Assembly: GCA_949128115.1 (NCBI GenBank)
Contig: OX421965.1
Coordinates: 11,749,420 to 11,813,419, forward strand
Length of the DNA stretch: 64,000 nt
Source of the DNA: Anaspis maculata
Taxonomy: Eukaryota; Arthropoda; Insecta; Coleoptera; Scraptiidae
Direction of reading: 5' to 3'
Shown here in pieces: positions 21,257 through 64,000 of this stretch (positions are counted from its first letter, which is position 1; each line of letters starts with the position of its first letter). The position numbers and the translations under genes are program-made. The notes below the pieces were generated by a model. That model searched no databases. It was given only the letters and a program-made list of their open reading frames with translations, and was not told the DNA's origin.

Positions 21257-21905
21257 CAGGGTGTCTCGAAACTCGCGCCTCAAAGCTCCACTCGGTATAT
21301 GGAATCTTCTATTAAGCCCCCAAAAATTGAATAAAAAAAAATTTCGACTTTTTTTAAGTTATGGAGGGTCAAAGGTTGGTCCTTCGAACCCTTCTAGTTT
21401 CGTTATTTCAAAAGGTTATTGTAATCTGTTTATGGCATAATATTGAGTGAAAAATATCAACCACTGGATGTGTACTAAATTTCCATTTACTATACAGGGT
21501 AAGTGATAAACCACTAAAATTATTTGCCTTCAAAAATGCCTGCAAACGTTTCTTTTGATCCCTTAACCAATGTAGAGTAGACAATAACACGGTTTTGTTC
21601 TAAAGATTTTTTTTGGGAGGAGTTTTTTACCGAAATTGGATTTTTTAGTGTATGACTCCACCCTGTGTAGTAAATGGAAATTTAGTACACATTCAGCGGT
21701 TGATATTTTTTACTCAATATTATGCCATAAACAGTTCAGAAAAATCTTTTAAAATAACGAAAACAGAAGGGTTCGATGGACCAACCTTTGACCCTCCATA
21801 ACTTGAAAAATAAAAGTCGAAAACATTTTTTATCAACTTTTGGGGTCTTCACAGAAGATTCCATATACCGAGTGGAGCTGTGGGGCGCGAGTTTTGAGAC
21901 ACCTG
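21257..21905. mobile_element. Foldback element, CAGGGTG family (649 bp)
   Basis: It starts CAGGGTGTCTCGAAACTCGC after TA (21255-21256) and ends GCGAGTTTTGAGACACCTG before TA (21906-21907). Arms of about 235 bp on each side; the centre is occupied by a second, smaller CAGGGT element at 21495-21665. No coding capacity. Confidence 0.85.
21495..21665. mobile_element. Small CAGGGT element at the apex of the preceding foldback
   Basis: CAGGGTAAGTGATAAACCAC on the left and ...GTGTATGACTCCACCCTG on the right give a TIR of about 25 bp. The outer foldback arms (GTACTAAATTTCCATTTAC and its complement) abut it directly. TA precedes it; the right flank reads TGTA. Confidence 0.7.
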
Positions 21906-21907
21906 TA

Positions 21908-23320
21908 TATGGAATACATATATTGTTGGAACCACATCACATGGTCATCTTCTGCAGCAGGGCGTAAATTTTTTCAACACAGTCCGATATCTTCTACTGG
22001 TAGACGATATGCTCGTTTAGTAGAAATAATCTATGTGAAAGAATTCATGCCTAAACAAAGCAAGACTAAGCAAGCATGCCTAAACAAGCCTTAGCGACAA
22101 AAAAGTTATTTGCTTTTCAAAACCTACTCTGATTTTCGGCCCACCTTATAGTAAAAAGGTATTGAATTTGAAAGCTTCGGGCAAAAAGTGTTAGAGGAAA
22201 ATAATTTGCTTTGAGGTTCAGGATTTAAATCGCCGAACCGCAATGCGACGCTTGGATGCTTGATGTCCGGTCCATTCGAACACTGGGACCGTCCAGCGCA
22301 CGGTTCATCGAGATTTCTCTTTGACCGCCAACGCAGGTTCAGTATGTTACATAATTCTGTATCTCGCAATGAGATCGTCATGTGTATGCTATCTTTGTCT
22401 GTATCGATGAATTCCCTGTACCTCCCTCTTTGTCTACCTGCATTGACAAGTCGTTACGAGGATACAGAATACCCTTCTTAATACCCGGTGCCTGCGCTTA
22501 CGGCAAAGTATTTTACTTTTTTATTTTTTGTTTTGGCTCCCTCGAAGAGAAAGTCAGTTATATAGAGCTCTCACGTGAACGTGAACATAGCATACGTACA
22601 TACACCAGGACAAAATTGATCATTGAATTTTTAATTGCTTCTGCAAAACTCTGACGCACACACAGAATCCAATTGGGACGTTTATTATGTTTTGCGAAGC
22701 GGTTTGATGTACCTACCTACACAAAAAATTGTTGTGTAGAAAAAATATACCTTTGGTGTCCTATACTTATGGATTTTCTATTTCTGATGTGATTGAAAAA
22801 GTTGTTCAGTATAGAATCGGTTTTCGGGAGCTTTTTTTGAAATGTGAAAATTCAAGTTGCGGTTTTCTTAAAAGAAATGTACGGTCAATGCTATCTATTC
22901 AACTTTCAATACAATGCACCTACGTTTTTTCAATGGAGGGATGCCATTCAGTTTTCTGTTTTCAAAAAAGCAACCAAAACCCGTTTCCAGTGAACCATAC
23001 TCCATCAGTCGCATCCAGAAATTTCTTGAACGTATCAACTTCTTCGATATATTAAGGTATTGTATCGTATGATCACCGAAGACGATCGGTTGAATAGAAA
23101 CAATCTTTGACAAAAATAAATATGCACGGGCCACGAAACTGCTCTGAGATAACGACGCGCAAATATGCGCTGTGGTTCTTAACATTTACGTCATTTTGGA
23201 TCTAATTAAGCTATGGGTTTGATTTTTTTCCATTTGAAGTACTGAGAGATCTTGTAACAGCGTTGAAACAATTGTTAAATTATTAATTAATTTATAGCCC
23301 AGGAAACATCTTTTTCAGCT
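21908..23320. other. Intronic DNA without a recognised element
   Basis: Nothing recognised in 1.4 kb on either strand beyond short open frames. Confidence 0.45.
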
Positions 23321-24436
23321 GAACTGCTCAACAACTGGAATGACGGTATCGAAAATTTTGCCTTTTTTCAAAATGACGTAACTTTGGATTGACACAACCG
23401 ATTTTGAATTTGTTTTCACAGTTTTTTTAGATCCATTTTTCAGCAATCCATCCCATGGACAAGATCTTGTTTTCAGTTTCAACTACTTTTTTCTACAGGG
23501 TGGAATGTAAAACATTGCAAAATTGTGCGGAGTTCCACCGATCCCCGTTTCTGTAAAAAAAATTTTTTTTTGGAATTCTAATGAATTATTTATTAAGCCT
23601 GACGTATAGTCTCGAAACGGTTTTAGAATTTTCCAGGTCAGATGTCCAGCAATGACGATATGATTTTTTTCACTTTCCCGACCCACCAAAATCTGTTCAC
23701 GGGATAAAAAGTTGGGAAATTTGTAGTTTTTCCAGAGGAAAAAACACGAAAACCGTGAGTCCGATTTAAAAAATTTTTCCTTTAAAAATTAATTCAATTT
23801 TTTCTCAAACTTTTATTCCCAGCATGTCTGCACCTAAAATGGATATTTCGTGGGGCTCATCGCATGTCGAAGTTTACACTGCAGTTTATTCAAATTCACA
23901 GATTGTCCAAATTCCATTTTGTAAAATTACCGTCAGGAAACCTAAACCTTGTCGATTCTGAAGATGGATCTACACGTTGGAAATGGTCTTAATCGTCATA
24001 GGGGACCTCAAAACGGATATATCTGTCGAAATCTCAAGAACAATTTTCAGCGCGTTCACAATACTTCCCCTCTTCGTTGGGTGGTGGGTCGGGAAAGTAA
24101 GAAAATCATATCGCCATTGTTGGACTTCTATCTGGAAAATTCAAAAACCGTTTCGAGACTAGACATCAGGCTTCATGAATAATTCATTAGAACTCGAAAA
24201 AAATTTTTTTAGAGAAACGGGTCGGTCAAACTTAGCACAATTCTGCAATGTTTTACATTCCACCCTGTAAAAAGATAATTGGAATTAAAAACCTAATCTC
24301 GTCAATGGGATAGATTGCCAAAAGATAGATATAAAAAACTGTGAAAACACATTCAAAATCGGTTGTGGCAATCTAAAGTTACGTAATTTTGAAAAAGGGC
24401 AAAATTTTCGATACCGTCATTCCAGTTGTTGAACAG
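23321..24436. repeat. Inverted repeat shell around a CAGGGTG element
   Basis: The outer arms, 23321-23493 and 24270-24436, are inverted copies (GAACTGCTCAACAACTGGA versus TCCAGTTGTTGAACAGTTT) and abut the inner element at 23496-24267 directly. The outer boundaries are not sharply defined and no outer target duplication was found. Confidence 0.75.
23496..24267. mobile_element. CAGGGTG foldback with loop related to the 4.6/11.6-kb repeat
   Basis: CAGGGTGGAATGTAAAACAT after TA (23494-23495) and TGTTTTACATTCCACCCTG before TA (24268-24269). Arms of about 190 bp. The roughly 380-bp loop contains GGAAATGGTCTTAATCG and GGGGACCTCAAAACGGATAT, the reverse complement of a block in the long direct repeats, and ends at the same TCGGGAAAGT motif. 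Confidence 0.82.
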
Positions 24437-24930
24437 TTTATTAATGCATCGTCCTTTACAGTAAGCGACGAAATTTTTTATTTATGAAAATTTCTATATA
24501 GAACCAGTGAAGCAAAACTAAATGGAGCATCAGGAGTATTCGGAAAAAAAATTGACTTCGAACTTATAGTTTTTTTAGAATGATTTTTTTCGACGCATCA
24601 ACTTTGAACAGCGCGCGGGGCAGGGTAACGTAGCACGCAACTACTAACTGTCCAAAACCCACTCGAAGTGAGGTGGACATTTTTAATGTGAAACTGAGCT
24701 GTCACAAAAATGATAATCAGATATTTTTTGTTCTTTACAACATTTTGATGGAAATGAAACGACATATTCCCAGCTAATTTCTATATAGTAAATGTCCTAT
24801 TTCAGACACTTGCTTTGCTCGTGTCTCTCAAACTTTCAAAGTGGTGAAATAATCACCCGTTTTCCTCAAGTAGCGCTGGATACCATTTTCTTCTACTTTC
24901 GTTTCCTTACTTTTTGCAGAAATGGCTATA

Positions 24931-26445
24931 CAGGGTGGTGAAAATTTCGATGCTCACCATTGGTATCTTCGAAACGGTAAGAGATACGAGGTCGGTTAAA
25001 TCAGAGAAAAGTTGCGCATTTGTGTGGGGATTGCGAATCTGAAAAGAGACTTTGAATATTTTGATTGGTTCCCGATTTATCACGAAAAAACTGAAAATTC
25101 TGATTTCAGAAATTATTTTTTATCTTTCTAACCATTCAAGCTATTTTGATCAAACTTAGTAGTTCTAGGTTTTTGACCACTCCGAGTCGAATAACGTTGA
25201 CAGAAATTTTTCAGGCCTTCTAGATTTCAAATTATGATAGTCAACTTTTCTTTTTCTTATGGCCGTCATATTGGATTTTTACACTAATAGATAGAGAAAA
25301 AAATTAGTTTTCCGAATTAGTACCCAACATGTTCTTTTTATGACATTTTTAGCGTCAAATTTCGATTTTTTCGTAAATTATTGACAAAATCGGGAATGCT
25401 TTGAAAAACAATTGAAATATTGTCTATAGCAACAACAAAAAAATGACGGATGGTGTGCAATTGACGTATCTAACTTCTTAATCGTGTTTTGTGCTTGTTT
25501 GTACCGAGAGTTCATAAATTAAATGGGTCAAGAGTGTCTGTTAGTTTAAAAACGTCTGTCGGAACAAGCATCGTTCTTGTTAAAGTTTTACAAATTCATT
25601 ACAAAAGGAGTAAGGATTACCCTAGTTTCGACAGACGTTTTTGAATTCACAGGCACCCTTGACTCATAACTCTCGGTACAAACAAGCACAAAACACGATT
25701 AATGGCGGCTTAACAGAACTTCGTTTGTCGCCGGCGACAGTGTCGCTGGCCAATAGGACTCGATCTGCCTGTACTTCCCTACCTCCCCCCATAATTTTCG
25801 CGACACGAGTTTCTGTCGTCGTGTCGTTCAAATTATTCAACTACAGTGGAGTGGGGGACTGTCGCCGGCGAGAACCGAAGTTCTGTAAAGCCGCCATAAG
25901 AAGTTAGATACGTCAATTGCACACAATCTGTCACTTTTTATTGTTGCTATTGATAATATTTCAATTGTTTTCCAAAGCATTCCCGATTTTGTCAATAATT
26001 TACAAAAATTTCGGAATTTGACGCTGAAAATGTCATGAAAAGAACATGTTTAGTACTAATTCGGAAAGCTAATTTTTTTCTCTATCTATTAGTGCAAAAA
26101 TACAATATGGCGGCCATAAGAAAAAGAAAAGTTGACTATCATAATTTGAAATCTAGAAGGCCTGAAAAATTTCTGTCAACGTTATACGACTCGGAGTGGT
26201 CAAAAACCTAAAACTACTAAGTTTGATCAAAATAGCTTGAATGATTGGAAAGATAAAAAATAATTTCTGAAATCAGAATTTTCAGTTTTTTCGTGATAAA
26301 TCGGGAACCAATCAAAATATTTGAAGTCTCTTTTCAGATTCGCAATCCCCACAAAAATGCGCAACTTTTTCCTAATTTAACCGACCTCGTATCTCTTACC
26401 GTTTCAAAGATACCAATGGTGAGCATCGAAATTTTCACCACCCTG
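24931..26445. mobile_element. Large CAGGGTG foldback (1515 bp)
   Basis: CAGGGTGGTGAAAATTTCGA after TATA (24927-24930), and TCGAAATTTTCACCACCCTG before TATA. The arms (about 24931-25555 and 25620-26445) are long inverted copies with low divergence by eye. The right arm is longer because of a 194-bp MITE at 25703-25896. No transposase. Confidence 0.87.
25703..25896. mobile_element. PIF/Harbinger-like MITE, TAA target duplication
   Basis: The ends TGGCGGCTTAACAGAACTTC and GAAGTTCTGTAAAGCCGCCA are inverted repeats, flanked by TAA at 25700-25702 and 25897-25899. The other foldback arm reads AAACACGATTAAGAAGT (reverse complement, about 25470-25490) with a single TAA and no insertion, a direct empty-site control. 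A 3-bp T-A duplication fits PIF/Harbinger. Confidence 0.85.
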
Positions 26446-26544
26446 TATATCAGGTGACATTTGGCAAGTATGCTTCGCTATCCCTCAGTTCCAATGAGTT
26501 TACAGGACAACAACGGAACAATGTTGATATCATACTTATTGTAT

Positions 26545-27024: not shown

Positions 27025-27028
27025 GTAT

Positions 27029-27547: not shown

Positions 27548-27555
27548 AGCTCTAG

Positions 27556-28963: not shown

Positions 28964-29001
28964 AGCTCTAGGCGAAGCTCTAGGCGAAGCTCTAGGTCAC
29001 C
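28964..29001. repeat. Three 12-bp GAAGCTCTAGGC-type tandem units
   Basis: AGCTCTAGGCGA recurs three times, the first copy overlapping the hAT target duplication. Confidence 0.8.
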
Positions 29002-29002
29002 C

Positions 29003-29150: not shown

Positions 29151-29159
29151 AATAACTAC

Positions 29160-29735: not shown

Positions 29736-31177
29736 CAGTAGAGAATACACTTTTTTCCAGTCAAATTGCTAAGTAAGTAGTTTGCTTCTTCAAAATATCA
29801 ATCGAAGTTTTCTTTAAAAGGCGGTTGGTCGAGCGGGGGCCTGCGGCTCAAAGCGGACTTGGCGCTACAATACTTATCGCATAATAAAAAAAACTAAAAG
29901 CCTCTGACTTTGACCTTGAATAATCTTCATCTTCAATCTACCCGGTTATCATATTGGGAAATCCTGTATAAATAACAATCGTTTTATGACCCCGGCGTGA
30001 AAAAGCTGGAGAGGATTTGAGATTCGTTTCTTTAATCTTGAATATCAGAATTTTCGCTTCGCATGTCGTCAAAGAAAAATTGTTATTGGCGTAACCAAGG
30101 AAATTGAACTGCTTTTTATTCAATCAAGTGAAATATCTACCTAAGTGGAATATGCACGCGCACCCTCTTAATATTATGTCTACCCACTTCCGGGAGCATT
30201 TTTTTATGAATTGCACCAAATTGGCCTTGAAATTGGCACATTAGCTAACTGGCTGCAGGCTTGCATCCCTTCCTATCGTGCAGATTTTCAATACAATACC
30301 TACTTGTGTTTTGCATTATCAAATGGAATCACTTTACGAATGATCTATTTTTCCTTTGTAGGTACTTAGATGCAGCTTTGCGCAGTGGCTGGAGCGATAA
30401 TGTTACATACTTGGATCTTGGATCACGCACGACTTGGATATAGCACCGTTACAGTTAACAGTTAATTGCCCTTATTGTATCTGTGTGATTAAGCCGAATC
30501 GCATGCATTGTGACTAAACAAGATTTTGCCTTCGCAAAACTGGAAGATTGAAAGACCGTTCGCATCAATTTCTTGGCCACTATGGTACCCTCTGGTACTT
30601 CTATGGCCTGATGACATTTTTTTTTGCAGGTATATTTCGATTCACAGTGACATACCATGAGTGAGAAAGAGTGATATAATTAATAGTTTTACTTCTACAC
30701 TTTCGGCGCTACCATTGCTTCAAATGCAAAAAAAAAACAAGATTGACTTGACCAGTTCGGTAGCTATTTTTTGCAAATGTTTTTAAAAAAATAAATGCAG
30801 AGGTGTTTTTTGGAAAATTTCCAGCAACAAAAAATACTCGAAAAAATAGCTGGCTATTCTCTTTTCGATCTTCAGTTTTTCATTCGAAGCATTGATAGCA
30901 ATGGAATTGTAAGAAGAAAAACATTTTGAAAGGACAATCTTGATGAGGCTTTCATCCAGAAATATTGGAGATGGCCAGACAGGGACGGGTTCTGAAAGAA
31001 TACTTGATAGCGAAGCCATATAGCCAAGAGGCATTGCGTTTCTGAATAAAGAGACTGTATAAATTTTGTGGGACTGTTAAGCACCCCGCCGCTGCCTGCA
31101 AATGCCGACTGTACAGTTTACGGGGGAGGCGGCGGCGGCGGCGGCGTCTCGACGCTCGAGATCCCACGCGCGCTTAC
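29736..31177. other. 5' end of the Sik2 intron, no recognised element
   Basis: Contains a (GGC)n tract at about 31126-31146, just inside the intron beyond the donor. No other structure recognised. Confidence 0.5.
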
Positions 31178-31309
31178 CTCCGTCTTGGTGATGCGGTGCT
31201 TGGCCAACTTGACCACGGCGAAGTTGCCCTTGCCGATGGTCCTTTCGATGTCGTAAAAGCCGACCCTGACGGCCGTCTTGGCCATCCTCTCTTGGCGCTC
31301 CGTCGTCAT
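31178..31309 (-). CDS. Sik2: Sik2 protein kinase, first coding exon (glycine-rich loop)
   Basis: 44 codons on the minus strand, beginning [20 protein letters not shown] and ending ...AKHRITKTE. The segment [12 protein letters not shown] is the glycine-rich nucleotide loop (GxGxFxxV) of a protein kinase, and [18 protein letters not shown] is the signature start of SIK1/SIK2 kinase domains. The chosen ATG at 31309 is preceded by an in-frame stop (TGA, about 60 bases upstream) with no other ATG between. The exon ends at ACGGAG followed by a GTAAGC donor, in phase 0, and continues in frame at 1985-2101. The full protein should be far longer; only the start of the kinase domain is in this window. 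SIK kinases act downstream of LKB1 in metabolic and cAMP signalling. Confidence 0.93.
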
Positions 31310-32610: not shown

Positions 32611-33576
32611 GGAGTCGGTCTATTAGTGGAGTCGGTGAGCTATAATTTCGTGCACTTTTGAGTGAAGCAATGCCGTTTGGTACAGATACTCTTCAGACAA
32701 TTCTAAGAGATTTGACCCGTCGGGGCACGGAAAATTTCCCTTAGGGGGCACTCTAGGGGGGTTCAAAGTTGGGCCCCAGAACCTTGAAAAAATGAACTTA
32801 TTCGACACAGATCCTATTTTGAAGTATCAAATGGGATCATGTCGAGTCTTCCGAAGCTGATGATGGTTATTTGAAAGAAAAACCCAAATAGGGGGGCCAA
32901 GGGGAGGGGATTTTCGAAAAATACCATGCACTCTCTTTCTGTTCAGTTTTGAGGTGTCAATTAGAATTCAATCGACGAAACAACGTTTTGGATTGTTAAA
33001 TAAAAGATGACAGGTGAAACTGGTCCGTCGGGACAATCAAAATTTCCTTTAGGGGCAGATGTAGAGGTCTGCTTCTTAAGCAGTATTTTAGTCTATACAC
33101 AAAAATAGCGTGAAACTTGGAGTAACGCAATCTTATTTGACATACATATTCTTTAGACCATTCTGAGACGATTAGTCTCCCGGGCCATGAACATTTTCCA
33201 ACAGGGGGCACCCATGAGGGGGGTTATTGAGGAATATTTCATGAAAAGTGTCAAAAATGTCATGCACTCTCTTTCAGACCAATTTTAAGGTGCCGCTTAC
33301 GATTCCATCGATCAAAAATCGATCTGAAATGTTGAATCCATATCAACAGGTGCAATGGACTCATTGGTCCAGTTAAAATTTCCATCTAGTGTTGGTAAAG
33401 GTCCGCTTTTTACCATTCCATTGATAGCTATACTTCCAATATTTGAGCTCATGTCCATTGTCCATACCTAAGCTTTTCCATTTATAGCCCAGGCGTCAGG
33501 GAAAACAATAAGGAAATAATTGTTTCCTGGCTGGAAACTAGCTTAAAACGATCTGTGTAGCTTAGGTTTTGACATA

Positions 33577-34974
33577 CTAGTTTCCCCCCTTTTGGAAATG
33601 TCGGCGTCATGTCGCCATCATCAACAAGAAGTGCACCAGCGTGGTTTTTGCCGAATATCTTAATTTTGGGTCATCTGACAGCAAAAGATGTAAGGAGTCA
33701 TTTTGAAGCCTATAAAATCCCCTACAGTTTGGTTTTTCAACCAATTTCCTGCGACCTATGGTCTTTGAGATAGAGCTTCTGGAAGCGAGAGTCATTGTCG
33801 TGAAAGCTCCATGGCCACTTGACTCAAAAAACTAAAATGTCGATGTGACAAAAAAAAATTTGAAATGAGATTGCTCAAAAACTCTTCATGCTATAGTTGC
33901 GGTGATAGTCTTAAACTCTTCCTCTTGAACCGTAAATTACAAATATTGAAAAGTCAAAAACATCACATTGTACATATACAGGGTGTACTACGGGAATCAA
34001 ATCAGAACAGAGAAATTTGACATATTTCTTCGATTTAGCCTATGCCTCGGCCTATGCGAAACTCTAAGCACTTATCACAAGTCCAATTTCAATATGTGTT
34101 GCTCTGTGAGCTTCACTTGATACACTTAACAAGTGGTCAGCACACAGCCTTCCTGTGAAATGTTTTGAAGGCCCTCTGAAATCATCAAAATTTACAGTAG
34201 CAAGAAATGTATGTAACAGTATATTATATACCAAGGAACCAAAGTGAATTTTTGATCCTTTGGGTGAAGTTTGTTGCTCGAGCGCCCTTTGGGTCCAAAT
34301 CCCCAAATTAAAAATTCACTTTGGTCCCTTGGTATATAATATACTGTTGTATACATTCCTTGGTACTGTAAATTTTTAATATTTTGATGATTTCAGAGGG
34401 TCTTGAAAGCATTTTACAGTGAAGCTGTGAGCCGACCACTTCTTTCGGGTATTAAGTGAAGCTTATAGAGCAAATCCATATTGATATTGGACTTGTGTTA
34501 GGTGCTTAGAGTGTCGCATATAGGCTAAATCGAAGAAATATGTGAAATTTCTTTGATCTGATTTGATTCCCTCAGTACACCCTGTATATGTACGATGTGA
34601 CGTTTTTGACTTTTCTATATTCACAATCAACGGTTCAAGAGAAAGAGTTTAAGCCTATCACCGCAACTATAGCATGAAGGATTCTCGAAAAATCTCATTT
34701 TGAAATTTTTCTGTCTGATCGACATTTTGGTTTTTCGAGTCAAGTGGCCACGACAATGCCTCTCGCTTCCAGAAGCTCTATCTCAAAAACCATAGGTCGC
34801 AGAAAGGTCATTCAAAAACTATTCCGTAGGGAATTTTATTGGTTTCAAAATGACTTCTTACATCTTTTGCTGTCAGATGGCCCAAAATCAAGATATTCGG
34901 CAAAAACCACGCTAGTGCACTTCTTGTTGATGATGGCGACATGACGCCGACATTTCCGAAAGGGGGGAAATTAG
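33577..34974. mobile_element. Foldback with CTAGTTTCCCCCC ends, inserted in the left palindrome arm
   Basis: CTAGTTTCCCCCCTTTTGGA on the left and ...TCCGAAAGGGGGGAAATTAG on the right, flanked by TA at 33575-33576 and 34975-34976. The opposite arm of the giant palindrome (38400-38440) reads across with a single TA and no insertion, confirming both boundaries and the TA duplication. Arms of about 395 bp enclose the CAGGGTG element at 33979-34584. Confidence 0.85.
33979..34584. mobile_element. CAGGGTG foldback at the apex of the CTAGTTTCC foldback
   Basis: CAGGGTGTACTACGGGAATC after TATA, and GATTCCCTCAGTACACCCTG before TATA. The centre holds a further short palindrome with CCAAGG ends (34210-34350) of the same type as 20131-20262. 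Confidence 0.86.
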
Positions 34975-36156
34975 TATTAATCCAGGCCCTAGCAGTACTT
35001 CTGTAGGAAAAACGATGTAATCAAATTTTTTTTTTTTTGAATCGTTAGAGGATCATCCCAGGGCAAATAATCACTCGGGTGCTTTCGCGATTTCTGGTAC
35101 ATTTTCCAGCAATATCGCATCAAAGTGTGCGGCTGGTCAATTCTTCAGTTCGCTGATATTTCTTGGAGTTTTTGCGATTTTTTTCAAATAAAAGTACTTA
35201 TCTACTCAAAAAACAATTCCGGATCGAATGGTGCTGTCAGATTTTGAGTACTTACGTTATACCGGGTGAAAAAAAAATAAAACAAGTTTTATATTCTTTT
35301 TCCAACTTTTTAGTTTCTTGGCCGATTTTCACAAACTTTATGTCAAAACCTCGCTGACTAAATCGTCTACTCGTCTACTCGTCGTAAATCGTCTACAAAT
35401 TATCAAAAATCAAGATGGCGGCGGCGAACCCAAATAAAAATGTGTCGTATTTCGAGAATTTTTTTTTGATTTCTAAACTTCGTAAAGAACGACACTGATG
35501 GTGGATTCTGGAAGATTCAGCTTTCTTCTGCAATTTGGGACTAGACTTACTTGATTCGCACATTCCACTGTGAAAATATAGTGAATTAAAGGAAGGTCCA
35601 CTAGTGATTTTTTCCAAATTCACAATAAATCAGCAGTTTAAAAACCTCTCGCGAATCCTTATTTCTGAAGCAATTTCTACACACTTGGTAGTGATCGTAA
35701 GCTGTGTGCATAGGTTACAAATACCGTGTTGATGCATGACCGAAGTTTCAAAATTTCAGATGATAGATGACGTAAATGGTGGAGGTGCGCATGTCAAATA
35801 TCGAATATTCTACTTTTTGTTCTAACATGTTCTGAGCGAAATTTCTATAAATGGTTGAAATGGTCAGCCGGATAAACACGCAACAAGAGTCAAATGTTGA
35901 AAGAGTCGAAATGTGAAATTTTCAAATAGACGACTTTACTTCTTTGGAGAAAATAAAACGGTTCTATCCGTTGGTCCAGGAATTTTTGCTGTTAAAATCG
36001 CAAGTAGCGAACAAAAATGAAAGCCAGCCGGATTTTTGTATATAAGCTCAGTTAAGCATGTAGTTCAACATAGTCAAAGTTCTCAAGAATCCGGTGTGAG
36101 CTTCGGCCGTTGTGGCCTCGAGAAGAACTTGAGGATCAGTTTTTCGCGTATATCTC

Positions 36157-36384
36157 GTGAACAATGGCACTTGGGAAGAACGTGCTTGGGAAGAAATTGT
36201 TGAAAATTTTATTGTCTATGAGAACGGTCCTCACACGTTTCATCGTCAGTCCACTCTTTCTTCGTCAAAACACAAGAAAATTAAAATAATCCAGATGCTC
36301 GATGCTGAAGACTGTATGGACCTTGAGTTTTATGATGGCGAAGTGCCACCTCGTAGAGGTGTTGGTTGGTCCACTATTTCTTGA
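36157..36384 (+). other. Mirror-image open frame of unknown meaning (pair with 37010-37237, minus)
   Basis: A 75-codon frame beginning MNNGTWEERAWEEIVENFIV recurs, inverted, at 37010-37237 with a handful of amino-acid differences. It has a protein-like composition (acidic, with a segment MLDAEDCMDLEFYDG) and stays open in both arms. I recognise no domain. It could be a captured exon fragment or a chance frame kept open by recent duplication; the second is more economical. Confidence 0.3.
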
Positions 36385-36428
36385 TTGAAACTTGAACCCA
36401 TCCATACGAACTATGCCGGCGGCATATA

Positions 36429-36965
36429 CAGGGTGAAATAAAAATAAAAATTTGAACATTTGTTCCTCAAGAACCAGAATCGGTGAAGTCATGTAAATCG
36501 CCATAAATAATTCTGATGTCATGGTCATGAAGTCGTCGTGAACTTGAATCAGATATCTTGAGCCGTTCTTGAAATATCTTCAAAAGACTGAAGTTGTTAC
36601 CGAAAAAAATAATTTTTTCGTCTACTCATCAGAAAAAAAGTTGACTGTGTTTTTTCTTAAAGTAGTTGGCCTAGAAAGTTTTTTTCACTATTATTTCATT
36701 TAAAATGTGATTTATCATTGTTTCCATTCAAAACACCAAGTCTCGATTCAATATCTGAAGAGTTACTGATAGACGGAAAACTAGTTTTTTTTCGTAACGA
36801 CTTCAGTCATCTGAAGATATGTCAGAAACGGCTCAACATATTTGATCCAAGTTTACGACGACTTCATGACCATGAAATTAGAAATATTTTGGGCTGTTTA
36901 TATGTCTTCACCTGTTTTGGTTCTTGAGGTACATTTCTTCAACTTCTTATTTTTATTCCACCCTG
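36429..36965. mobile_element. CAGGGTG foldback at the apex of the giant palindrome
   Basis: CAGGGTGAAATAAAAATAAA after TATA, and TTATTTTTATTCCACCCTG before TATA. The palindrome arms outside (CTATGCCGGCGGCA and TGCCGCCGGCATAG) abut it with no spacer beyond the TATA, so it sits exactly at the centre. 537 bp, no coding capacity. Confidence 0.87.
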
Positions 36966-39190
36966 TATATGCCGCCGGCATAGTTGGTATTGATGGCAAA
37001 TAGTTACAGTCAAAACAGAATAGATCGAACAACACCTCTACCAAGTGGCACCCCGCCATCATAAAACTCAAGGTCCATACAGTCTTCAGCATCGAGCATC
37101 TGGATTATTTTAATTTTCTTGTGTTTTGACGAAGAAAGAGTTGACTGACGATGAAACGTGTGAGGACCTTTCTTATAGACAATAAAATTTTCAACAATTT
37201 CTTCCCAAGCACGTTTTTCCCAAGTGCCATTGTTCACGAGATATACGCGAAAAACTAATCCTCAAGTTCTTCTCGAGGCCACAACGGCCGAAGCTCACAC
37301 CGGATTCTTGAGAACTTTGACTATGTTGAACTACATGCTTAACTGAGCTTATATACAAAAATCCGGCTGGCTTTCTTTTTTGTTCGCTATTTGCGATTTT
37401 AACAGCTAAAATTCCTGGACCAACGGATAGAACCGTTTTATTTTCTCCAAAGAAGTAAAGTCGTCTATTTGAAAATTTCACATTTCGACTCTTTCAACAT
37501 TTGACTCTCCTTGCGTGTTTATCCAGCTGACCATTAAGCCAACCATTTATAGAAATTTCGTTCAGAACATGTGAGAACAAAAAGTAGAATATTCGATATT
37601 TGACATGCGCACCTTCACCATTTACGTCATCTATCATCTAAAATTTTGAAACTTCGGCCATGCACCAACACGGTATTTGTAGCCTATGCACACAGCTTAC
37701 GATCACCACCAAGTGTGTACAAATTGCTTCAGAAATAAGGATTCGCGAGAGGTTTTTAAACTGCTGATTTATTGTGAATTTGGAAAAAATCACTAGTGGA
37801 CCTTCCTTTAATTCACTATATTTTCACAGTGGAATGTGCGAATCAAGTAAGTCTAGTCCCAAATTGCAGAAGAAAGCTGAATCTTCCAGAATCCACCATC
37901 AGTGTCGTTCTTTACGAAGTTTAGAAATCAAAAAAAAATTCTCGAAATACGACACATTTTTATTTGGGTTCGCCGCCGCCATCTTGCTTTGCGATAATTT
38001 GGCTATATTGACAATTGATTTGAGTAGACGATTTAGTCAGCGAGGTTTTGACATAAAGTTTGTGAAAATCGGCCAAGAAACTAAAAAGTTGGAAAAAAAT
38101 ATAAAACTCGTTTTATTTTTTTTTTCACCCGGTATAACGTAAGTACTCAAAATCTGACAGCACCATTCGATCCGGAATTGTTTTCTGGGTAGATTAGTAC
38201 TTTTATTTGAAAAAAATCGCAAAAACTCCAAGAAATATCAGCGAACTGAAGAATTGACCAGCCGCCAACTTTGATGCGATATTGCTGGAAAATGTACCAG
38301 AAATCGCGAAAGCACCCGAGTGATTATTTGTCCTGGGATGATCCTCTAACGATTCCAAAAAAAAATTTTGATTACATCGTTTTTCCTACAGAAGTACTGC
38401 TAGGGACAGGACTATATGTCGAAACCTAAGCTACAGAGATCGTTTTAAGCTAGTTTCCAGCCAGGAAATTATTTCCTTATTGAGCTGATTTTTGCTCCCT
38501 GGCGCCTGGGCTATTAGTGGTTTCTAGTAGTATGAAGAGCCGCATATGGTTTGATTGTACGAGCTGAACACCCTCATATTTGCTTAGGTATGGACGATGA
38601 TCATGAGCTCAAATATTGAAAGTAGCTATCAATGGAATGGTGAAAAACGGACCTTTAAATCAACACTGGATAGAAATTTCAACTGGACCAATGAGTCCAT
38701 TGCACCTGTTGATATGAATTCAACATTTCAGATCGATTTTTGATCAATGGAATCGTAAGCGGCACCTTAAAATCTCTGAAAGATGTCCCTGCATGACATT
38801 TTTGACACTTTTCAAGAAATATTCCCCAATAACCCCCCTGTTCGGTTTTTTGTCTCAAATAATCACTTCGTCAACTCCAGAGGACCCGACATCATCACAT
38901 TTGACGTCCAGGAATTGAATCAATGTCAAAATAAATTTTCCACCGAACATTTTGGGACTAAACTTCGACTTCCACCCCCTAAATTGCCCCCTGTTGGAAA
39001 TTCTTCATGGCCCAGCGTTTCAGTTATCTCAGAATGGCCTGAAAAATATTTGTGCCTAATAATGTTGCGTCACTCCGACTTCCACGCTATTTTTGTGTAT
39101 CGGCCAAAATACGGCTTCACGAAGAAGACTTCTACATCTGACCCTGATCGAAATTTTGATTGACCCGACAAGCCCATTGCACCTGTCAAA

Positions 39191-40274
39191 GGACCCCGCA
39201 CGATTCTTATGGAAAATGGCTCCCGGTTAAATTCTCTGAATTTTTGATATGTTGTAGCTCATGAGATACTAATCGAATACCGTGAACCCCAAACTCAAAT
39301 AATGGACAGTTTTTTACCCACAGGGGGTTGAAGTTGGAGGTTTTGACGGCTTCAAAATGATATTATGACGTTAATAAGAGCTTTCTATTTGGTTTCTCTT
39401 CAAGTTGTGTTTCATGCTAAATGTATTTATTTGACAGAAAAATATCAACCCCCTCATCCTCCATCCCCAACCCCTATCTACCATCATAAAATCCGAGATT
39501 ACTCCCAAAAGCCATGCGGATGGCTTCTGTGATTTAAATTATGAATTTTGACATAAAAGTTATTTTCCACCCCTAATGTTGAGGTGCCGATTTTCCAATT
39601 TTCCTCGGTTAATTTGGCTGAATTTTTGGTATTGTGTACTTCTGATTCTGCTGAACAAAAAGTTCTCGAACCAAAACTTGAACAGTTCCTATGAACAGTT
39701 TTTGGTCTGCAGGGGACTTAAGTTCAATATTTATGCTCTCAAATCTTCAACTTCAGTCCCCTGCAGAACAAAAACTGTTCATAGGAATAAGTTTTGGTAT
39801 GAGAACTTTTTGTTCAGCAGAATTAGGAGTACACAATACCAAAAATTCAGCCAAATTAACCGAGGAAAATCGAAAAATCGGCACCCCAACATTAGGGGTG
39901 GAAAATAATTTTCATGTCAAAATTCATAATTTAAATCACAGAAGCCATATGCATGGCTTTTGAGAGTAATCTCGAATTTAGTGATGGTAGATAGGGGATG
40001 GGGGTGAAGGAGGGGGTTGATATTTTTCTGTCGAATAAATACAGTTAGCATGAAACACAACTTGAAGAGAAACCAAATAGAAAGCTTTTATTTACGTCAG
40101 AATATCATTTTTAAGCCGTCAAAACCTCCAACTTCAACCCCCTGTGGGTAAAAAACTGTCCATTATTTGAGTTTGGGGTTCACGGTATTTGATAAGTATC
40201 TCATGAGCTACAACATATCAAAAATTCAGAGAATTTAACCGGGAGCCATTTTCCATAAGAATCGCGCGGGGTCC
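39191..40274. repeat. Palindrome of about 1.08 kb inside the right arm
   Basis: The arms, about 530 bp each, meet at about 39733 with a loop of roughly 25-30 bp. The outer ends are GGACCCCGCACGATTCTTAT and ATAAGAATCGCGCGGGGTCC. It separates two copies of the 430-bp unit of the giant palindrome (38860-39190 and 40275-40620). No clear target duplication. Confidence 0.86.
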
Positions 40275-41243
40275 CCTTCCAAATAAACGCACCATCACCT
40301 TAAGAGGAGTTGATATGATCAAATTTGACGTTCAGGGATTCAATCAGGGTCGAAATTAATCATTTATTGAATATTTTGGGGCGAAACTTTGACCCCCCCT
40401 AAAATGCCCCCCGTTGGAAAATTTTCATAGCTCGGGAGACTAATCGTCTCAGAATTGTCTAAAGAATATGTATGTCAAATAAGATTACGTTACTCCAAGT
40501 TTCACGCTATTTTTGTGTATAGACTAAAATACCGCTCAAGAAGTAGACCTCTACATCTGCCCCTAAAGGAGATTTTGATTGTCCCGACGGGCCAGTTTTA
40601 CCTATCATCTTTCATTTAACAATCCAAAACGTTGTTTTGTCGATTGAATCATAAACTGACACCTCAAAACTGAACAGAAAGAGAGTGCATGGTATTTTTC
40701 GAAAATCCCCTCTCCTTAACCCCCCTAATTGGGTTATTCTTTCAAACAACCATCATCAGCTTCGGAAGACTCGACATTATCCCATTCGACGCTTCAAAAT
40801 TAGATCAGTGTGGAGTAAGTTCATTTTTTGAAGGTTTTGTTCGCTATTATTTCTGTAATTCCTGGACTAATGTTGGAATAATGTTACGAGCTGCGATTCT
40901 GGATAACACGCGATCTTTCTAGACTCTTCCCGTTAGATCGCAGTGTGCTAGTGCGGAGCGTTCTGGTGTGTTCCGGAGCGCGTGTAAGCTTTTTCCCGTA
41001 CAACTGTATAGACTTCAGCAGTGGGTCAAGCTACATCTGTCCATTTTGGCGGAGGCGCCGGTCCTAGACCACGGCATAATACGTATAATGATATGTAGGT
41101 ATAATATAATTATACGTAATCACCCGTATAATAATACGGGTAATGTGCAAGATTTTTCGGGAGTTGTATGGAAACCGTATGTCAGGTTACTGTGGAGACT
41201 GCTGGAGAATGCATGGAACATTCGAGATGGATCAGTCGGACCT

Positions 41244-42006: not shown

Positions 42007-42007
42007 A

Positions 42008-44240: not shown

Positions 44241-44247
44241 TACTATA

Positions 44248-44974
44248 CAGGGTGTCCACGGTTCAAGTGCTTTAACTGTAGGGTTGTATTCTTTGGCCAA
44301 ACACAAGAAAATTTTTCCAATAATTTTTTTTTGGGCTTCAGTTTCCAAGTTACAGGGTGTCAAACAATTATAAAAAAAATCTTTTTTTGCTGTAACTTAG
44401 TAACTACTATATTCACGGGAACCAAACTTGGTACTATTGATAGACTATTGATCAGCTTTCATTTAGGGTCTACCATTACTTTGTTGAAAAACCAGTGGCG
44501 TAGATATTAGGGTTACCCACCAATTCGCCCTGGTTATCTGCACGCCACTGAGGTAAAATCAATCTTTGATAAAATTTTCTGATTCCCCTGACAATTCTAA
44601 GCAAAAAAGGTACTCTTTGTCCAAAGCTCTGAAGTCAACCATTTTCAAGAAAAACGGCATTTTATGCTGAACAACAAGAAAATCGATCAGAACAATAAAT
44701 TGACTGATGAGACTTTTGTGAGCTGCAGTACTATTGAAAGTATTAAAATAACTGAAAAGAAGACTCATTAGAAATTATTGCTCTTGTTCAGTATTACTCA
44801 CACTAATTACAAGATGATTTATTGAAAAATAATTTGACTTTCTTTTTCTAATTTTTTGACAACCTGTAACTTGGAAACTGAAGCAGGAAAAAAAAAATGT
44901 CTCGGAAAATTTTTCTTGCATTTGGCCAAAGAATACAACCCTACAGTTAAAGCACTTAAACCATAGACACTCTG
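44248..44974. mobile_element. CAGGGTG element inside LTR E (727 bp)
   Basis: CAGGGTGTCCACGGTTCAAG after TA (44246-44247); the right end is ACCATAGACACTCTG before TA (44975-44976), one mismatch from the family terminus. The arms are about 140 bp. Just beyond the right end, LTR sequence resumes directly, so this element marks the insertion point in the LTR. Confidence 0.8.
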
Positions 44975-45184
44975 TATAAGGCATCAATCGTCGCCTCACG
45001 AGCAGTTATGAATTGAAATGCGAAGTGGTAGCGAGCGGATTAAAAGCGAGTAGTAATCACAGCGATTTTCCTAAGTAAATAATTGTTTGCGTGTATTTAT
45101 TGTAGTACGCAGTAATAAACAGTATGTTTTTAAAACGATGGTCTCAATTATATTCGAACCCGTATGCGAAATACGTAACAATAA

Positions 45185-52679: not shown

Positions 52680-54251
52680 CTTAAGTGTAACACATTTGAG
52701 TTAAATATAGATTAACCAAGTTCACTAGGAGATATAAAGCAAAATGCGAAAAACCGGTTTTAAAGTAACACCACCACACTACGGTACCAGTACAGTGCGA
52801 TGCTCTTATGCGACTTAATTAAAAAGGTAATCCGCCGTTGCGAAGGTGGATGAGGGGTGGTTTCCTAGAAGAATAGCGGATAAAACTGGATTGTCTTGAG
52901 ACTTCTTGAGTCACAGTGCTGTTTACTAGTGTTTACATCGCTAGCGCTGGATACCACCAGGAAAGTATTGTGCAAATGAAGATTTGCTTACTTATTCCTT
53001 TACATCTCCGTGATTATTGATGTGGTATTTTCCTTTTGATTTTGTTTGTACGTTGGTACGTCTGAAGTAGGTATACCGTCGTAGAGGGAAACTTGGTAGC
53101 GTTTGCCGATGAGAGGGGGAGATGGCACTAGGGCAAGACAGCTGTGTCGAGAACGCGTCGATTGTTGTGTGCTCCAGAGTAGTTGGTTTTCTCGACCGGT
53201 TCCAGGTGAGTTTTTCACTTGATATTGTATAGTAATTTTGGCTTCCACCCATCCACCAAATCATGCATGGTACTTCGATACACATTCCGTCCGCATAATT
53301 ATTATACCTAACATGAAATTTCGGTCGAGTTGCTGGCACTTTTTTCTCAACGGGCTTGCGTAACTCGCAATTTTTCCCCTTTGTAGTCAAGGTGCGTGGC
53401 ACTGCTTTGTAGTTTGGGTAATTAATCGTAATCTGTAAATTCGTTCTTGGTTTTGATGAATCCCGCAAATCTAGTGGGTGTGCACATCGTGACGCACAAC
53501 GCACTCTCATGACGTTGCCCCAGAGTCACTCTGTTGTGTGCGTATTTCGGGGCTTCACGTTTCTCACGCTGCTACAAGGTTGCTTTTCCGTGGACCAGCA
53601 CTGATGTGTACTTGACTTCCAAAAAGATGACAAAAGTAAAATGTACTTAGTGAAGTAGTCTCCGGTAAATTGTCAAAGACAGAGAGAGAAAGGTACCTGT
53701 AGTTGACCTTCTAAAATTGTAAGTTTCAAAAAATCAAGTGTCTAATGCGCGCCATAAAAACTAAAGAGAAGTTACAGATTTCGATGAATTGCAGTGGTTA
53801 TTGAATGGAATGCTATGCTGTGTGTGTGTATATGATCTGTTACAGAAGAATCCACAGAGACGATGTGCCATCGAAGCGAGTACTCGAGCGAGTATAATCT
53901 TCACAGGGACGTCAAGAGAAAGTCAGGATGGCCGAAATGTTTGAATATTAGAATAATTATTTTTGTGAGATTCTATTGATGTTATTTAGAAAATTTCAGA
54001 CAGTAGGTAGCTAGACGACAGACAGAGGGTGTAAACCAGTGGTCGCTACGCTAATCAGCTTTATTATAGTTTGAGAATTTTAATAGCGTCTGGCGAAGGG
54101 TGCTCTGCTGTGGAAAGAACCGAGACGTCAGTCGGTTTCAGAGTATGGTTGAATATAGTAGGCTTCACCTGATATAATAAATAATAATAATAATAAATAG
54201 CTTTTATCGGCTATGATTTAATTCGCCCATTCCTGATTATCAAGATTTATA
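52680..54251. other. Spacer; 172-codon open frame of unknown status on the minus strand
   Basis: The frame at 52992-53510 (minus) starts MRVRCASRCAHPLDLRDSSK and has no recognisable domain. On the plus strand GGTTCCAGGTGAGT at about 53200 looks like a splice donor, and the block 53090-53600 is richer in CpG than its surroundings, so an untranslated first exon or promoter of an unseen plus-strand gene is possible. An (AAT)n run lies near 54178-54197. Confidence 0.25.
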
Positions 54252-54255
54252 ATAT

Positions 54256-54968: not shown

Positions 54969-54971
54969 TTA

Positions 54972-56594: not shown

Positions 56595-56688
56595 CAGATT
56601 ACTTTTAAGTCATTGGACACTTTATACTGAGGCACGTGTAGCCATGTACAAAGTTACTCAAAGCTTATACCTATAGTAAAACAAAAAG

Positions 56689-59561: not shown

Positions 59562-60638
59562 GCCAATCAAAGAGCGCCATCCTTGAAAATTTTCGATTTT
59601 TTCTGAATAAATTGTAAACTATCACCTTTAGAACACAAAAACCAGCAAAGCAAATGTAGCCCGGTTAATTCTCAAGAGATCAGTACCTACTGAACTCATT
59701 ACTTTGTGGTTAATAGTCTTTGAGATACAGCGTCTGCAAAAACACAGTGAAAATTACTCAAGATTTATTTCCGGATTTTGCGTAACAATTTGCATAGTGT
59801 CAGTTCAGGGGATGTAACGTGGACAGCAAATGTGCGGATTTCGATGTGTTTTACATGTGTGGAAAGCCAATTCAACATTCGGTATCACAGTTTTGTCTAT
59901 AAGTCGCCAACTTGAAAATGGTACTTTTGCTCGACCTTTGAAATTGATACTTGATGTCCCCAAGAATCCCCAAAAATCAATTTTTTTCATACCATGACAT
60001 TTGCCTAATTTTTTAAGTGGGGTAAACCATCCAGGGAATATATGAAGAATTGAATACCAGAAAAAATAACATGTTTTGGAATCTCTTTCCCAGTGATGGT
60101 TCCTGAGTTATATGGGTTGAAAGACTAAAACGACCTATTCAGAAAAAAGATAGGTAGTCCAAACACTAACTGCTGAATACTGTACGCTTGCATTTGAGGT
60201 GTAAGATGACTAAGATGCCACTTGGCAGACGTGTAAAGTAGGGGAGACTGGGTAACAGTGAGACACTTTTTTTTATATATTTTTTTACTCGAATTGTATT
60301 TGAAATAAAGTTTCAATTTCGATTGCTACATAACACTACACATCTCAGTAACCAACGCGCCAAGCGATTCTTTTATATTTACTGTCATTTTCCATATATG
60401 CTTTGTCAATGTCATTCTTGATCAATGTCTCACTGTTACCCATACCTTGGGAACAGTGAGACAGGGCTACGGGTAACAATGAGACACTTCATAAAAGGTG
60501 GAAATAAACATTTATTTCAAATTATATAATAAAAACTAAAAAACGACTCTAATAAAATATTTAAAACAAAAACAATAGAGATCAACAAAAAAACAGCACT
60601 TCTTGCTTTAAATAGAGAAAAGAATAGGTAATACTAAT

Positions 60639-62427
60639 TTAGCGAAGATTAATTGAATTGAAATTTATTTCAAACGAAAAATAAGCATTCTGCCTCTTTG
60701 TTTTACCGTAGTTGGTCGGCGGCGGCAAAATCATTTTTATATCAAATTGCGAGATAATTGCTGTATCAGGAATGTCTGGGAAAAAAAACTTTCCATCAAC
60801 TTTCTTACTTCTTCGTAGGAAAGTGATTTCACACTCATTTTCATCCGTCAGCGCTGTCAGCAATTGTCCGATAAAGTAAACTGTCTTCGATTTAGGGTTT
60901 TCAGGTTCGAATTCGGTTAAGACGTAGTCCCCCACTTCAGGAGTCCTCTCCAACTCCTCGAAGGCCGTCGGATCTACCTCAACCATGTAGTCAGATTCGT
61001 CTGACTTCCACTCAGCTTCTTCTTTTCCTTCGTCGTCGTCGCTTTCATGAATCTTTCGCTTGACTGCTTTCTTTTTTTGTTTTTCCACCGAAGTTTGTTT
61101 TTTATTCTGCCTGCTTTCCAATTCATCTTTTTCAGGAGTGTCCGTTGGTATCATACTTCTTCCTTTTCTTCGACCTTGGCGCATTTGCTTTCTTGCTTCA
61201 GCCTTAGGATAACCTCGCATCTCTTCTGGACTTATGAAGCGACCATCAGCAACATTTTGCGAGGTGCTCGCATCTATCAGATCTTGGAGAGGAGGAGGGG
61301 TTTGGTGTCCCGAAACCAAGTCAGGTGCAGGTCGGTCGGTTACAGAACTTGGCAAAAAGTCAAGTTCTGTGAAAACATCGCGATCGTAAGGAAATATTCC
61401 GCATTTCTTGAAGGCAGATGTTATATTCGCAGGTGTCATTGCTTTGTTATAGGCTTCTCCTACACAAGCAGCGACTTCGTATATTGACAATGGTTTCCCA
61501 GGATGCTGCATAAGCCAGCTATCTACAGCAGCATTGTAAGCCAGGTTGAATGGCTTGAACAGTCCAACATCCAGAGGCTGTAACTTGTTAGTGGAGTGAG
61601 GAGGAAATGTGAGGATTGTAACCCCGTGGGCTTTTGCAAGATTCAAGACGTTGATTGATAGATGGCTTTCATGATTATCATACAGCAAGAGAGTAGGAGT
61701 TTCGTTTGAACTGCAGGCGTATTTGATAAAGTGCTCAATAACTTTCAAAAACAATTCTGAATTCATCCAACCAGATGGTGCCGCTAATCCCAACGTACCA
61801 GGGGGAGCTCCTGCGATCATGTGCTCCTTAAAATGAACTCGGGGGAAAACCATCGCAGGAGGAAGGTGATTCCCTGCCGCACTGATGATCGCACAGGTTG
61901 TCACCAGTGTCCCTTTTTCACCACTGGTAACCTTGTTGACCTGTTTGACCCCTTTCACAGCTAACACCTTGGCTGATTTTTGGACTGTAACGGTTGCAGT
62001 TTCGTCGAGGTTATATATCCGCGTGCCATCACAAAACCTCTCATGCCGATTTATCACATCATGCAAATTATTTAAAAAAGTGTTCACATTATGTGGATTA
62101 AAGGATGTAGCACGGGCCAAACTGCATCCCTCTGGAGTTCTCAGCGAAATGTTGGGATGTCGCCTCATGAAATTCCGGATCCATTCTTCACCTGCGGTTT
62201 CATTGGTTTGCCAACTTGGAGGTATTTTAATGTTATTTGTCGTTGCCATTTCATAGGCCAATTTCCTGCAGTCAACAAGAGATAAACCATAGAACATCTG
62301 GGAACATCTGATGATGTAATCAGCAAAAGAATTCTCTTGCTCCTGAGTAAAGACTCGATTCACGTCATAATGGGGAGTATATCGAATTGAAGCGTTTTCG
62401 TTGGCGGCTTTCTTTTTTTTTACATAC
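60639..62427 (-). CDS. pogo/Tigger transposase, exon 2 (DNA-binding end plus DDE domain)
   Basis: Exon 2 begins after an AATTATAG acceptor and continues the exon 1 frame (AG plus G makes Arg, then YVKKKK). It contains a CENP-B/Tc5-type helix-turn-helix region (WIRNFMRRHPNISLRTPEG) and a DDE_1 nuclease domain. Catalytic candidates are D in YNLDETATV (about residue 189 of the joined protein), D in LLLYDNHESH (about 298) and D in LQPLDVGLFKPF (about 334), giving DD35D spacing. A basic, acidic-flanked tail with KKKAVKRKIHESDDDE is a plausible nuclear localisation signal. The joined protein is about 643 residues, a normal length for Tigger/pogo transposases. No stop or frameshift seen. It would cut and reinsert the element at TA sites. 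Confidence 0.92.
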
Positions 62428-62485
62428 CTATAATTAAAATGTGCCACCTAACTATTCAGGTCCTACCTTGTAGTCATCATCTTAC
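62428..62485 (-). other. 58-bp intron of the pogo transposase
   Basis: The donor AAG/GTAAGA and acceptor TTATAG/G recreate a continuous reading frame and complete the helix-turn-helix domain. The length is at the short end for insect introns. A continuous unspliced frame would start at 62447 and lose the N-terminal DNA-binding domain. Confidence 0.82.
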
Positions 62486-62628
62486 CTTGCCAAGGTTTGA
62501 AAACTCAGAGATTCTGCTTTTGCTACTGATCTGATGCTGCGCCCGGTTAAAACAGCTTCAACTGCCCTCCGCATCGTTTCCTCGGAAAACATTCGAATGT
62601 TAGTTTTCCTTGGTGGATTTCTAGGCAT
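62486..62628 (-). CDS. pogo/Tigger transposase, exon 1 (HTH_psq DNA-binding domain)
   Basis: 47 codons and two bases on the minus strand, starting MPRNPPRKTNIRMFSEETMR. The segment RRAVEAVLTGRSIRSVAKAE followed by SLSFQTLARYVKKKK across the intron is a Pipsqueak-type helix-turn-helix (recognition-helix pattern S.RSVAK....S.QTL.RYV). It would bind element ends, perhaps the GGTAACAGTGAGAC sites. The ATG at 62628 precedes a short basic N-terminus as expected for the family. Confidence 0.88.
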
Positions 62629-62757
62629 TTTGATGGTCAATGAATTTCAAAAGCAACATGAAGATTTTGAAAATGACTTCAATGATTTCTAAAACAAAAT
62701 TTAAAAGCTGCAAAATTTGTTCAACATAATTGCCAACATTATGGTTTATAGTTTATA

Positions 62758-63120
62758 CAGCGGCTTGCCATACTGATATTTTGTTGTTGTGAGTAGGCGG
62801 TGTAGCCAACAGTTTTAGCGAGTGTTTAGAGTTATTCAAGAACTTCGAATACTTAAAATTGAAGTTTAGTATGGAATCATGTTTCAGATTTGAAGTAATA
62901 TGGGTAACAGTGAGACGCATGGGTAACAGTGAGACATGTCTCACTGTTACCCACTTGAAATCGTCTCACTGTTACCCATATGATTTCAAAGCAGAAACAT
63001 GATTCCATACTAACCTCCAATTGTATTCGAAGTTCTTGAATGACTCTTAACACTCGCCAATACTGCTGGCTACACCGCCATACACACAACAATAAAATAT
63101 CAGTATGCCAAGGTGGTGTA
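62758..63120. repeat. Palindrome in the right subterminal region of the pogo element
   Basis: Arms 62758-62935 and about 62945-63120 are inverted copies (TGCCATACTGATATTTTGTT / AACAATAAAATATCAGTATG), meeting at a cluster of the GGTAACAGTGAGAC sites at 62901-62977. It makes the two element ends structurally unequal. Confidence 0.82.
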
Positions 63121-64000
63121 TACACCACCGATTTAGGAGCAAAATAATTACTTTGTTGCAACTTTTATGAGCCGGCCATTGAACCTCGAACACTGAAAGC
63201 ATCTCCGGCGCACACACTGGATTAGTGGGGGGGTCGAAGTGATGCCAAATCACATGCTTAGTGACATCTCTAAAATGCAAGTGGAACTAGAGATATTTCA
63301 AATGTCTCACTGTTCCCCGTGTCTCACTGTTACCCAGTCTCCCCTACATAAGTATATTCACTACGTCTGCTAAGTGGCATTTTGTATCATCAAATGCAAG
63401 GTATGTACAGTATTTACCAGTTAGTGTCCGGACTATCTATGTTTTTTTCAAATAGATCGTTTTAGTCTTTCAACCCATATAACTCAAGAACCATCACTAG
63501 GAAAAAATTCCAAAACGTGTTATTTTTTTGATATTTAATTCTTTATACATTCCCTGAATGGTTTTGCTCTACATGGAACATTAAGCAAATGGCATGGTAT
63601 GGAAAAAATCGATTTTTGGGGATTCTTCGGGACATCAAGTATCAATTTGAAAGGTCAAGGAAAAGTACCATTTTGGAGTTGGTGACTTCTAGACAAAACT
63701 GTGATACCGAATGTTGAATTGGCTTTCCACCACACATGTAAAACACATTGAAATCCGCACATTTGCTGTCCACGTTACAGCCCCCGCACTAATACAATGC
63801 TAATACTATGCAGATTGTTCCGTAAAATCCGGAAATAAATTTTGAGCAATTTTCACTGCGTTCTTCAAGACGCTGTATCTCAAAGACAATTGACTACAAA
63901 GTAATTAATTTGGTACTGATCTCTTGAGAATTGAACGGGCTACATTTGCTTCGCTGGTGTTTGTGTTCTAAAGGTGATAGTTTACAAGTTATTCAGAAAA

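Follow-up and report, generated by a model that had tools for sequence, protein, structure and literature searches.

In a 64,000-bp stretch of the genome of the beetle Anaspis maculata (the window; C5:11749420-11813419 of a 757.8-Mb, 50-contig genome), elements with CAGGG-type inverted ends sit on the axes of larger palindromes. Their ends are flush with mirror-image outer arms, and most of the junctions between element and arm lack a step in age. We put at roughly 0.55 the probability that most of these apparent "elements at the apex" arose by mirror-copying of element ends about a fold point within the element. Because a palindrome mirrors any end equidistant from its axis, centring is no evidence for targeting: one mirrored inward-facing end looks like a whole element, flush, centred and with matching TA. 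The premise of an earlier, sequence-only reading, that random insertion should mostly hit palindrome arms, is therefore not directly applicable, since mirrored inward ends always look centred.

Elements on palindrome axes

The named cases (c1 to c6 and B, Table 1) were read at base level. Inner ends in the nested cases have the form TA-CAGGG...CCCTG-TA and are directly adjoined by the outer arms. The exceptions to this form are the CCGGG ends of the 35260-38134 shell and a TG at the right end of c1, and TA stands outside the inner end on 11 of the 12 sides across c1-c6. Flanks of each inner element were aligned outward from the junction and then joined by script, with one TA kept for measuring the loop. 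Joined in this way, they leave an unpaired loop of 0 nt in c1, c3, c4, c5 and c6 and of 5 nt in c2, and their inverted-repeat match reaches the TA, with agreement in 72/80 columns in c1, 61/83 in c2, 70/80 in c3, 63/83 in c4, 77/80 in c5 and 70/83 in c6. The joined site reads TATATA in c1, c3, c4 and c5. TATA-type sites occur also at some non-nested elements, so they look like a family preference, and such a local sequence is without power to explain arms of ~100-1200 bp. Extended flank symmetry of the nested kind was absent from five non-nested CAGGG-type elements (9029, 21255, 24929, 44246 and 58135).

Five of the six apex cases listed by the sequence-only reading (c1-c5) proved to be exact and TA-flanked on the axis; the sixth, a pogo-type element, lies off axis in a loop. 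Two axial cases had been missed, 44351-44868 in 44246-44977 (c6) and B (25479-25702). As for the insertions that it had placed off the apex, 33577-34974 and 39191-40274 do lie in one c5 arm each, and the one at 25703 adjoins the axial B.

The motif TACAGGGTG was counted 16 times in the window against 0.30 expected. CAGGGTG families have terminal inverted repeats (TIRs) and a flanking TA duplication (24929, 44246 and 9029; c1 by reading), and long inverted arms form most of the element, as is demanded of foldback or long-TIR elements. Among the frames in the window no transposase was found for these families. An automatic scan of the c2 outer palindrome (23322-24438) found no TIR or target-site duplication (TSD). 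The outermost mirror of c5 ends within a repeat-array unit, and a convincing terminal repeat with duplication is absent there.

Table 1. Nested elements and palindromes of the window, with positions counted along the whole stretch
Feature	Position	Strand	Remarks
c1 outer palindromic element	21255..21907		ends TA-CAGGGTGTCTC, TA on both sides; multi-copy family
c1 inner unit	21493..21667		short imperfect TIR, non-palindromic interior; TA left, TG right
c2 outer palindrome	23322..24438		ends near AACTGCTC, resembling block family
c2 inner unit	23494..24269		right arm overlaps a fragment by ~27 bp
Outer palindromic element around B	24929..26447		CAGGGTGGTG ends, TA (TATA) on both sides
B, palindromic element	25479..25702		on axis of 24929-26447; TTAA or TA at site
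Insert adjoining B, later than B	25703..25897		GGCGGC ends
c5 outermost mirror	about 32777..40839		array in outer part, repeat unit a few hundred bases
c3 outer palindromic element	33577..34974		TTTCCCCCC ends, TA; only in left arm of c5 palindrome
c3 inner unit	33977..34586		flush on axis
Shell: outer unit of c4 and inner unit of c5	35260..38134		CCGGGTG ends
Stretch outside c4 element	36341..36426		mismatch 16/83 vs 39/208 in the element's own arms
c4 inner unit	36427..36967		flush on axis
Palindrome in right arm only of c5	39191..40274		
c6 outer palindromic element	44246..44977		CAGGGTGTCC ends, TA
c6 inner unit	44351..44868		short TIR, non-palindromic interior, flush on axis
Outer palindrome around pogo	59599..64000		cut by window end
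pogo-type element	60241..63344	-	in 24-nt loop; transposase frame 60639-62447

The pattern in an independent block

As an independent sample we used 200 kb of another chromosome, C1:20000001-20200000 (the block); statements of absence cover the 64-kb window and this block, 264 kb together, unless a narrower scope is given. Under a paired-end rule (TACAGGGTG, at most 1 mismatch, at least 14/22 terminal matches), 19 elements were paired in the block and 9 in the window. The list holds some overlapping, doubtful pairings and misses c1, which has TG after its right inner end. Flank-symmetry scores split into two groups, 53-185 in 7/19 elements of the block and 5/9 of the window and 11-25 in the rest, and 12 of the 28 paired CAGGG-type elements score as lying within a mirrored flank. 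In view of these two separate groups, random insertion was dropped as an explanation. When symmetry had to begin no more than 8 bp from the junction, the rule also applied to the random control, 6/19 elements in the block and 5/9 in the window qualified; of 3000 TA-to-TA intervals drawn at random from the block, 4 did. Block cases 48611 and 64271 share their flanks, which makes them segmental copies and not independent of each other. Since the block repeats what is seen in the window, the pattern is not peculiar to the latter.

Inverted repeats are plentiful in the block, where 74 alignments of at least 80 bp were listed, some of them overlapping. Palindromes standing empty were sought with a strict rule that diverged palindromes escape (arms of at least 40 bp, a loop of at most 30 nt and 12 exact inner base pairs): there were none in the window and one in the block, with a loop of 21 nt, and no loop-free long palindrome standing empty was seen in the 264 kb. 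A comparison of the joined-flank loops of c1-c6 with those of 14 other palindromes gave p = 0.0004 (Mann-Whitney), which is only indicative because the comparison set is mixed (3/14 are inner parts of composites and 1/14 includes B together with its neighbour) and a mirrored flank is loop-free by construction.

Ages of inner and outer arms

If the inner ends had arrived after the palindrome, inner and outer arms would be expected to have separate histories. Mismatches inside versus outside the junction were 4/25 vs 22/236 in c1, 18/188 vs 21/168 in c2, 28/278 vs 38/387 in c3, 44/1154 vs 11/280 in c5 and 5/33 vs 11/105 in c6, and by Fisher's test these five of the six window pairs are without a junction step (p 0.29-1.0). 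For c4 the best change point along 34978-38414 is 36341 (likelihood ratio 84.7), which lies 86 bp beyond the element end; mismatch directly outside that end does not differ from mismatch inside it (p = 1.0, Table 1), and the CCGGG end of the shell shows no divergence step (p = 0.23). Six block composites, two of which are segmental copies of each other, gave junction p values of 1, 0.74, 1, 0.86, 0.058 and 0.070. In a shuffle test on 11 independent pairs, with c4 represented by the columns adjoining its junction, an inner/outer difference this small arose in 33 of 20000 pairings, and without c4 it arose in 155 of 20000. Pairs below threshold numbered 10/11 with the adjoining c4 columns, 9/10 without c4 and 9/11 with the whole c4 shell. 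Apex-to-outer gradients of arm identity were nominally significant only in the outer arms of c2, c3 and c4, among 11 arms tested.

Families and order of events

The c1 composite is a dispersed family, inherited as a unit: its copies lie at different sites, in different flanks. There are 4063 candidate places in the genome, and of the 40 that were scored, 34 reach almost full length and none lacks the inner part; because the query held the inner part and would rank copies lacking it low, this does not show that such copies are absent. Consensus outer arms of 28 c1 copies, the window's included, match in 225/241 positions without gaps. At 16 fixed differences between the arms, 68 of 445 cells have become alike, against ~12 by a hand estimate from the mutation rate, and we conclude that arm-to-arm copying happens in this family.

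The palindromic element at 24929-26447 has a second copy at block 143972-145459, with B on the axis of both. The second copy does not contain the 25703-25897 insert but has another one close by, and 25703-25897 has 0 matches in the block. These short inserts beside B (window 25703-25897 and block 144752-144911) are two different sequences, flanked by TAA and TTA, which resemble Harbinger-type target duplications. The c2 unit resembles a block family of AACTG-ended units with CAGGGTG ~170 bp inward, and an initial view that its outer palindrome is not a transposon was dropped when the AACTG ends proved to be a family. The right arm of the c2 inner unit shares ~27 bp with a fragment that occurs in single copy at two other places, 4645-4772 and 11601-11725.

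One relative of c4, at block 81227-81950, has a single arm that extends from inside the shell past the CAGGG end to roughly where the axis would lie; no second arm for it was found in the block, and it is either unduplicated or half-deleted. One-armed loci of the 109534 type, at block 60822-60946 and 53417-53541, were rejected as proof of a state before duplication, since both begin with the outer end of the element itself and could be copies that were truncated. The palindrome at 42041-44217 was likewise rejected as an apex case, its insert (~42921-43473) sitting in one arm. That insert, an element of ~550 bp, has TGTTCGG ends and is flanked on either side by a GCGAT repeat; a family copy at block 66870-68995 is without it.

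The pogo element and its loop

The pogo element is a plain insertion into a loop and an exception to mirror-copying. It lies off axis, flanked by TA on both sides, at a TA within a loop that we read as 24 nt (13 nt by the automatic rule). The conclusion follows from the agreement of its terminal repeats in 16/16 aligned columns, against 548/613 for the outer arms, and from an empty sister locus at block 44749-45604, where the loop is intact, pogo is absent and most of the right arm is missing. This locus and block 185016-187448 are partly preserved relatives of the outer palindrome. Empty palindromes of the outer families, to which the sequence-only reading had pointed as a sign of targeting, are thus represented by pogo's sister; for the other families none was seen in the 200-kb block.

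Frame 60639-62447 matches DDE_1 (E 3.4e-14; 53.2 bits, above the cut-off of 22) and scores 21.2 bits against HTH_Tnp_Tc5, a CENP-B/Tc5-type DNA-binding domain with a cut-off of 22.2. Its named relatives among the 120 matches listed are mostly insects. The DDE_1 frame and the TA on both sides are shared with pogo-type elements of the IS630/Tc1/mariner supergroup, a likeness confined to 60241-63344. A small palindrome inside pogo (62751-63125) has several copies of GGGTAACAGTGAGAC at its centre, and the same motif stands at the pogo ends (60252 and 63303); these are candidate transposase binding sites. A further palindrome of the pogo-arm family, block 184370-188694 (G000:C1:20184370-20188694), has a younger outer mirror, 97.5% identical, around older arms at 88%, and carries other inserts near its apex.

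Other features of the window

A GC-rich stretch with frame-shifted residues on the minus strand (31077-31439) resembles the start of a SIK-type protein kinase exon. Also on the minus strand, an 809-codon open frame at 46825-49254 contains an RVT_1 reverse transcriptase domain (E 4.8e-37) and is LINE-like. A tandem array at 14834-16266 has 5.5 copies of a 259-bp unit, and 4648-5788 and 11601-12771 form a direct repeat of ~1.17 kb, 94% identical. The CpG ratio, at 0.95, shows no depletion.

Discussion

On the reading we favour, an element end together with the flank of one arm would be copied inverted into the opposite arm, the fold lying within the element. Such a copy would by construction yield matching TA-flanked ends and an outer palindrome flush with the element, and the resulting long-TIR unit would then be mobilised as one piece. 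The copying could proceed by arm-to-arm conversion, by a template switch during gap repair, or by synthesis from a broken end that folds back, the element's inverted ends serving as primer; transposase cleavage at one end may set it off. We propose only tentatively, as a possible but doubtful extension, that TIR elements act as repeated seeds: one end is cleaved, and the 3′ end pairs with the TIR across from it and is extended outward over the flank, giving a flush palindrome that picks up another transposon end and so turns into a new, larger foldback element.

Several results tell against mirror-copying. The whole c4 shell does differ, with 35/203 mismatches inside and 44/1154 outside, and when it is entered in full the shuffle test fails (5901/20000). 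Restricted to the six window pairs the test is non-significant (533/720; 19/120 without c4), and two block pairs lean toward a difference (0.058 and 0.070), of which one exceeds the G threshold. Because the adjoining columns of c4 were picked post hoc, after its profile had been seen, and because arm-to-arm conversion could level ages following an insertion, the age test supports the reading without proving it. The reading also requires a later event, in which the composite itself transposed, because several outer units carry TIRs and TA of their own. If random inserts were simply mirrored, one would expect ends that face outward too, and complete elements within each of the two arms; among exact motif matches in the window, only inward-facing ends were noticed on reading, and targeting would account for this. 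Finally, no certain pre-duplication locus was seen.

Targeting combined with survivorship, the main rival, seems to us rather unlikely. TA-inserting transposases would strike extruded loop-free palindromes at their tips, and those interrupted at the centre would survive while uninterrupted ones are unstable. Exact centring in several unrelated families, block included, is what this predicts, and pogo sits in a loop that stands empty in its sister copy. Symmetric TA targets of local extent have been described (PMC3276498), and palindromes without a spacer are those most prone to instability (PMC7999016), but the known symmetric motifs span only ~7-15 bp. Stand-alone elements lack extended target symmetry, empty loop-free palindromes with arms of at least 40 bp were not found under the strict rule, and most junctions have no age step. 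Where the sequence-only reading had left targeting and inverted duplication side by side, these last two observations favour duplication for most cases; targeting or chance fits pogo.

That each nest is instead one element without any insertion, with its inner CAGGG conserved at the inward limit of a long TIR, on the model of Tc1-group inverted-repeat/direct-repeat (IR/DR) elements, is unlikely, and fits better for c1, c4 and c6, where outer and inner ends are alike, than for c2, c3 and B, where they are of different types. The AACTG-ended block units retain their inner CAGGGTG, and the scored c1 relatives all cover the inner part, though the query contained it; against this stand the TA beyond nearly all inner ends of c1-c6 and the 1.17 kb between outer and inner ends in c4. 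An assembly or library foldback artefact is highly improbable. Such artefacts have been reported for long reads (PMC12870357), but the arms here differ by ~4-21%, with values that vary by shell, and composites of the same kind are found again at other loci; arm divergence led us to drop this explanation. Mirror-copying of element ends remains the reading that we prefer.

The nearest published description that we noticed is Galileo, a Drosophila element of the P superfamily in which TIRs extend by internal sequence or by a secondary transposable element (TE) becoming part of both TIRs (PMC4168063, PMC3573991). As on our reading, long TIRs grow by incorporating sequence, a secondary TE comes to lie in both TIRs and copies exchange sequence; unlike here, the superfamily is another one, the TSD is 7-8 bp and the secondary TEs lie within the TIRs, whereas our inner element always spans the axis. 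In yeast, mirrored flanks arise at breaks through priming by foldback on short inverted repeats (PMC10622511, PMC11724301). There, as in our proposal, a broken end folds on a short inverted repeat and primes inverted copying of its own flank, but local events in yeast span 2 to ~150 bp, against arms of ~100-1200 bp here, and no transposon end or transposase takes part. The palindromic targets of DNA transposons, as described in PMC3276498, are symmetric and mostly AT-rich, and pogo and a Tc1-type element use TA, but these motifs, of 7-14 bp, contrast in size with outer arms of at least 100 bp. Three patterns gave 0 matches against viral contigs, and one pattern gave 44 matches against prokaryote genomes. 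A literature search for the motif gave unrelated papers among the 20 matches listed of 545. Nor did any of the papers listed in our searches strike us as describing precisely this arrangement, though we do not claim that none exists.

An element at an apex should accordingly not be taken as target choice, since a palindrome centres mirrored ends by construction. To our knowledge it is unsettled how foldback and long-TIR elements gain their arms. Such units are abundant in this genome, and with 12 of 28 elements scoring as lying in mirrored flank the question becomes countable. If TIR elements do act as seeds, repetition of the process would build nested shells and would offer a general route to the origin of foldback and long-TIR families.

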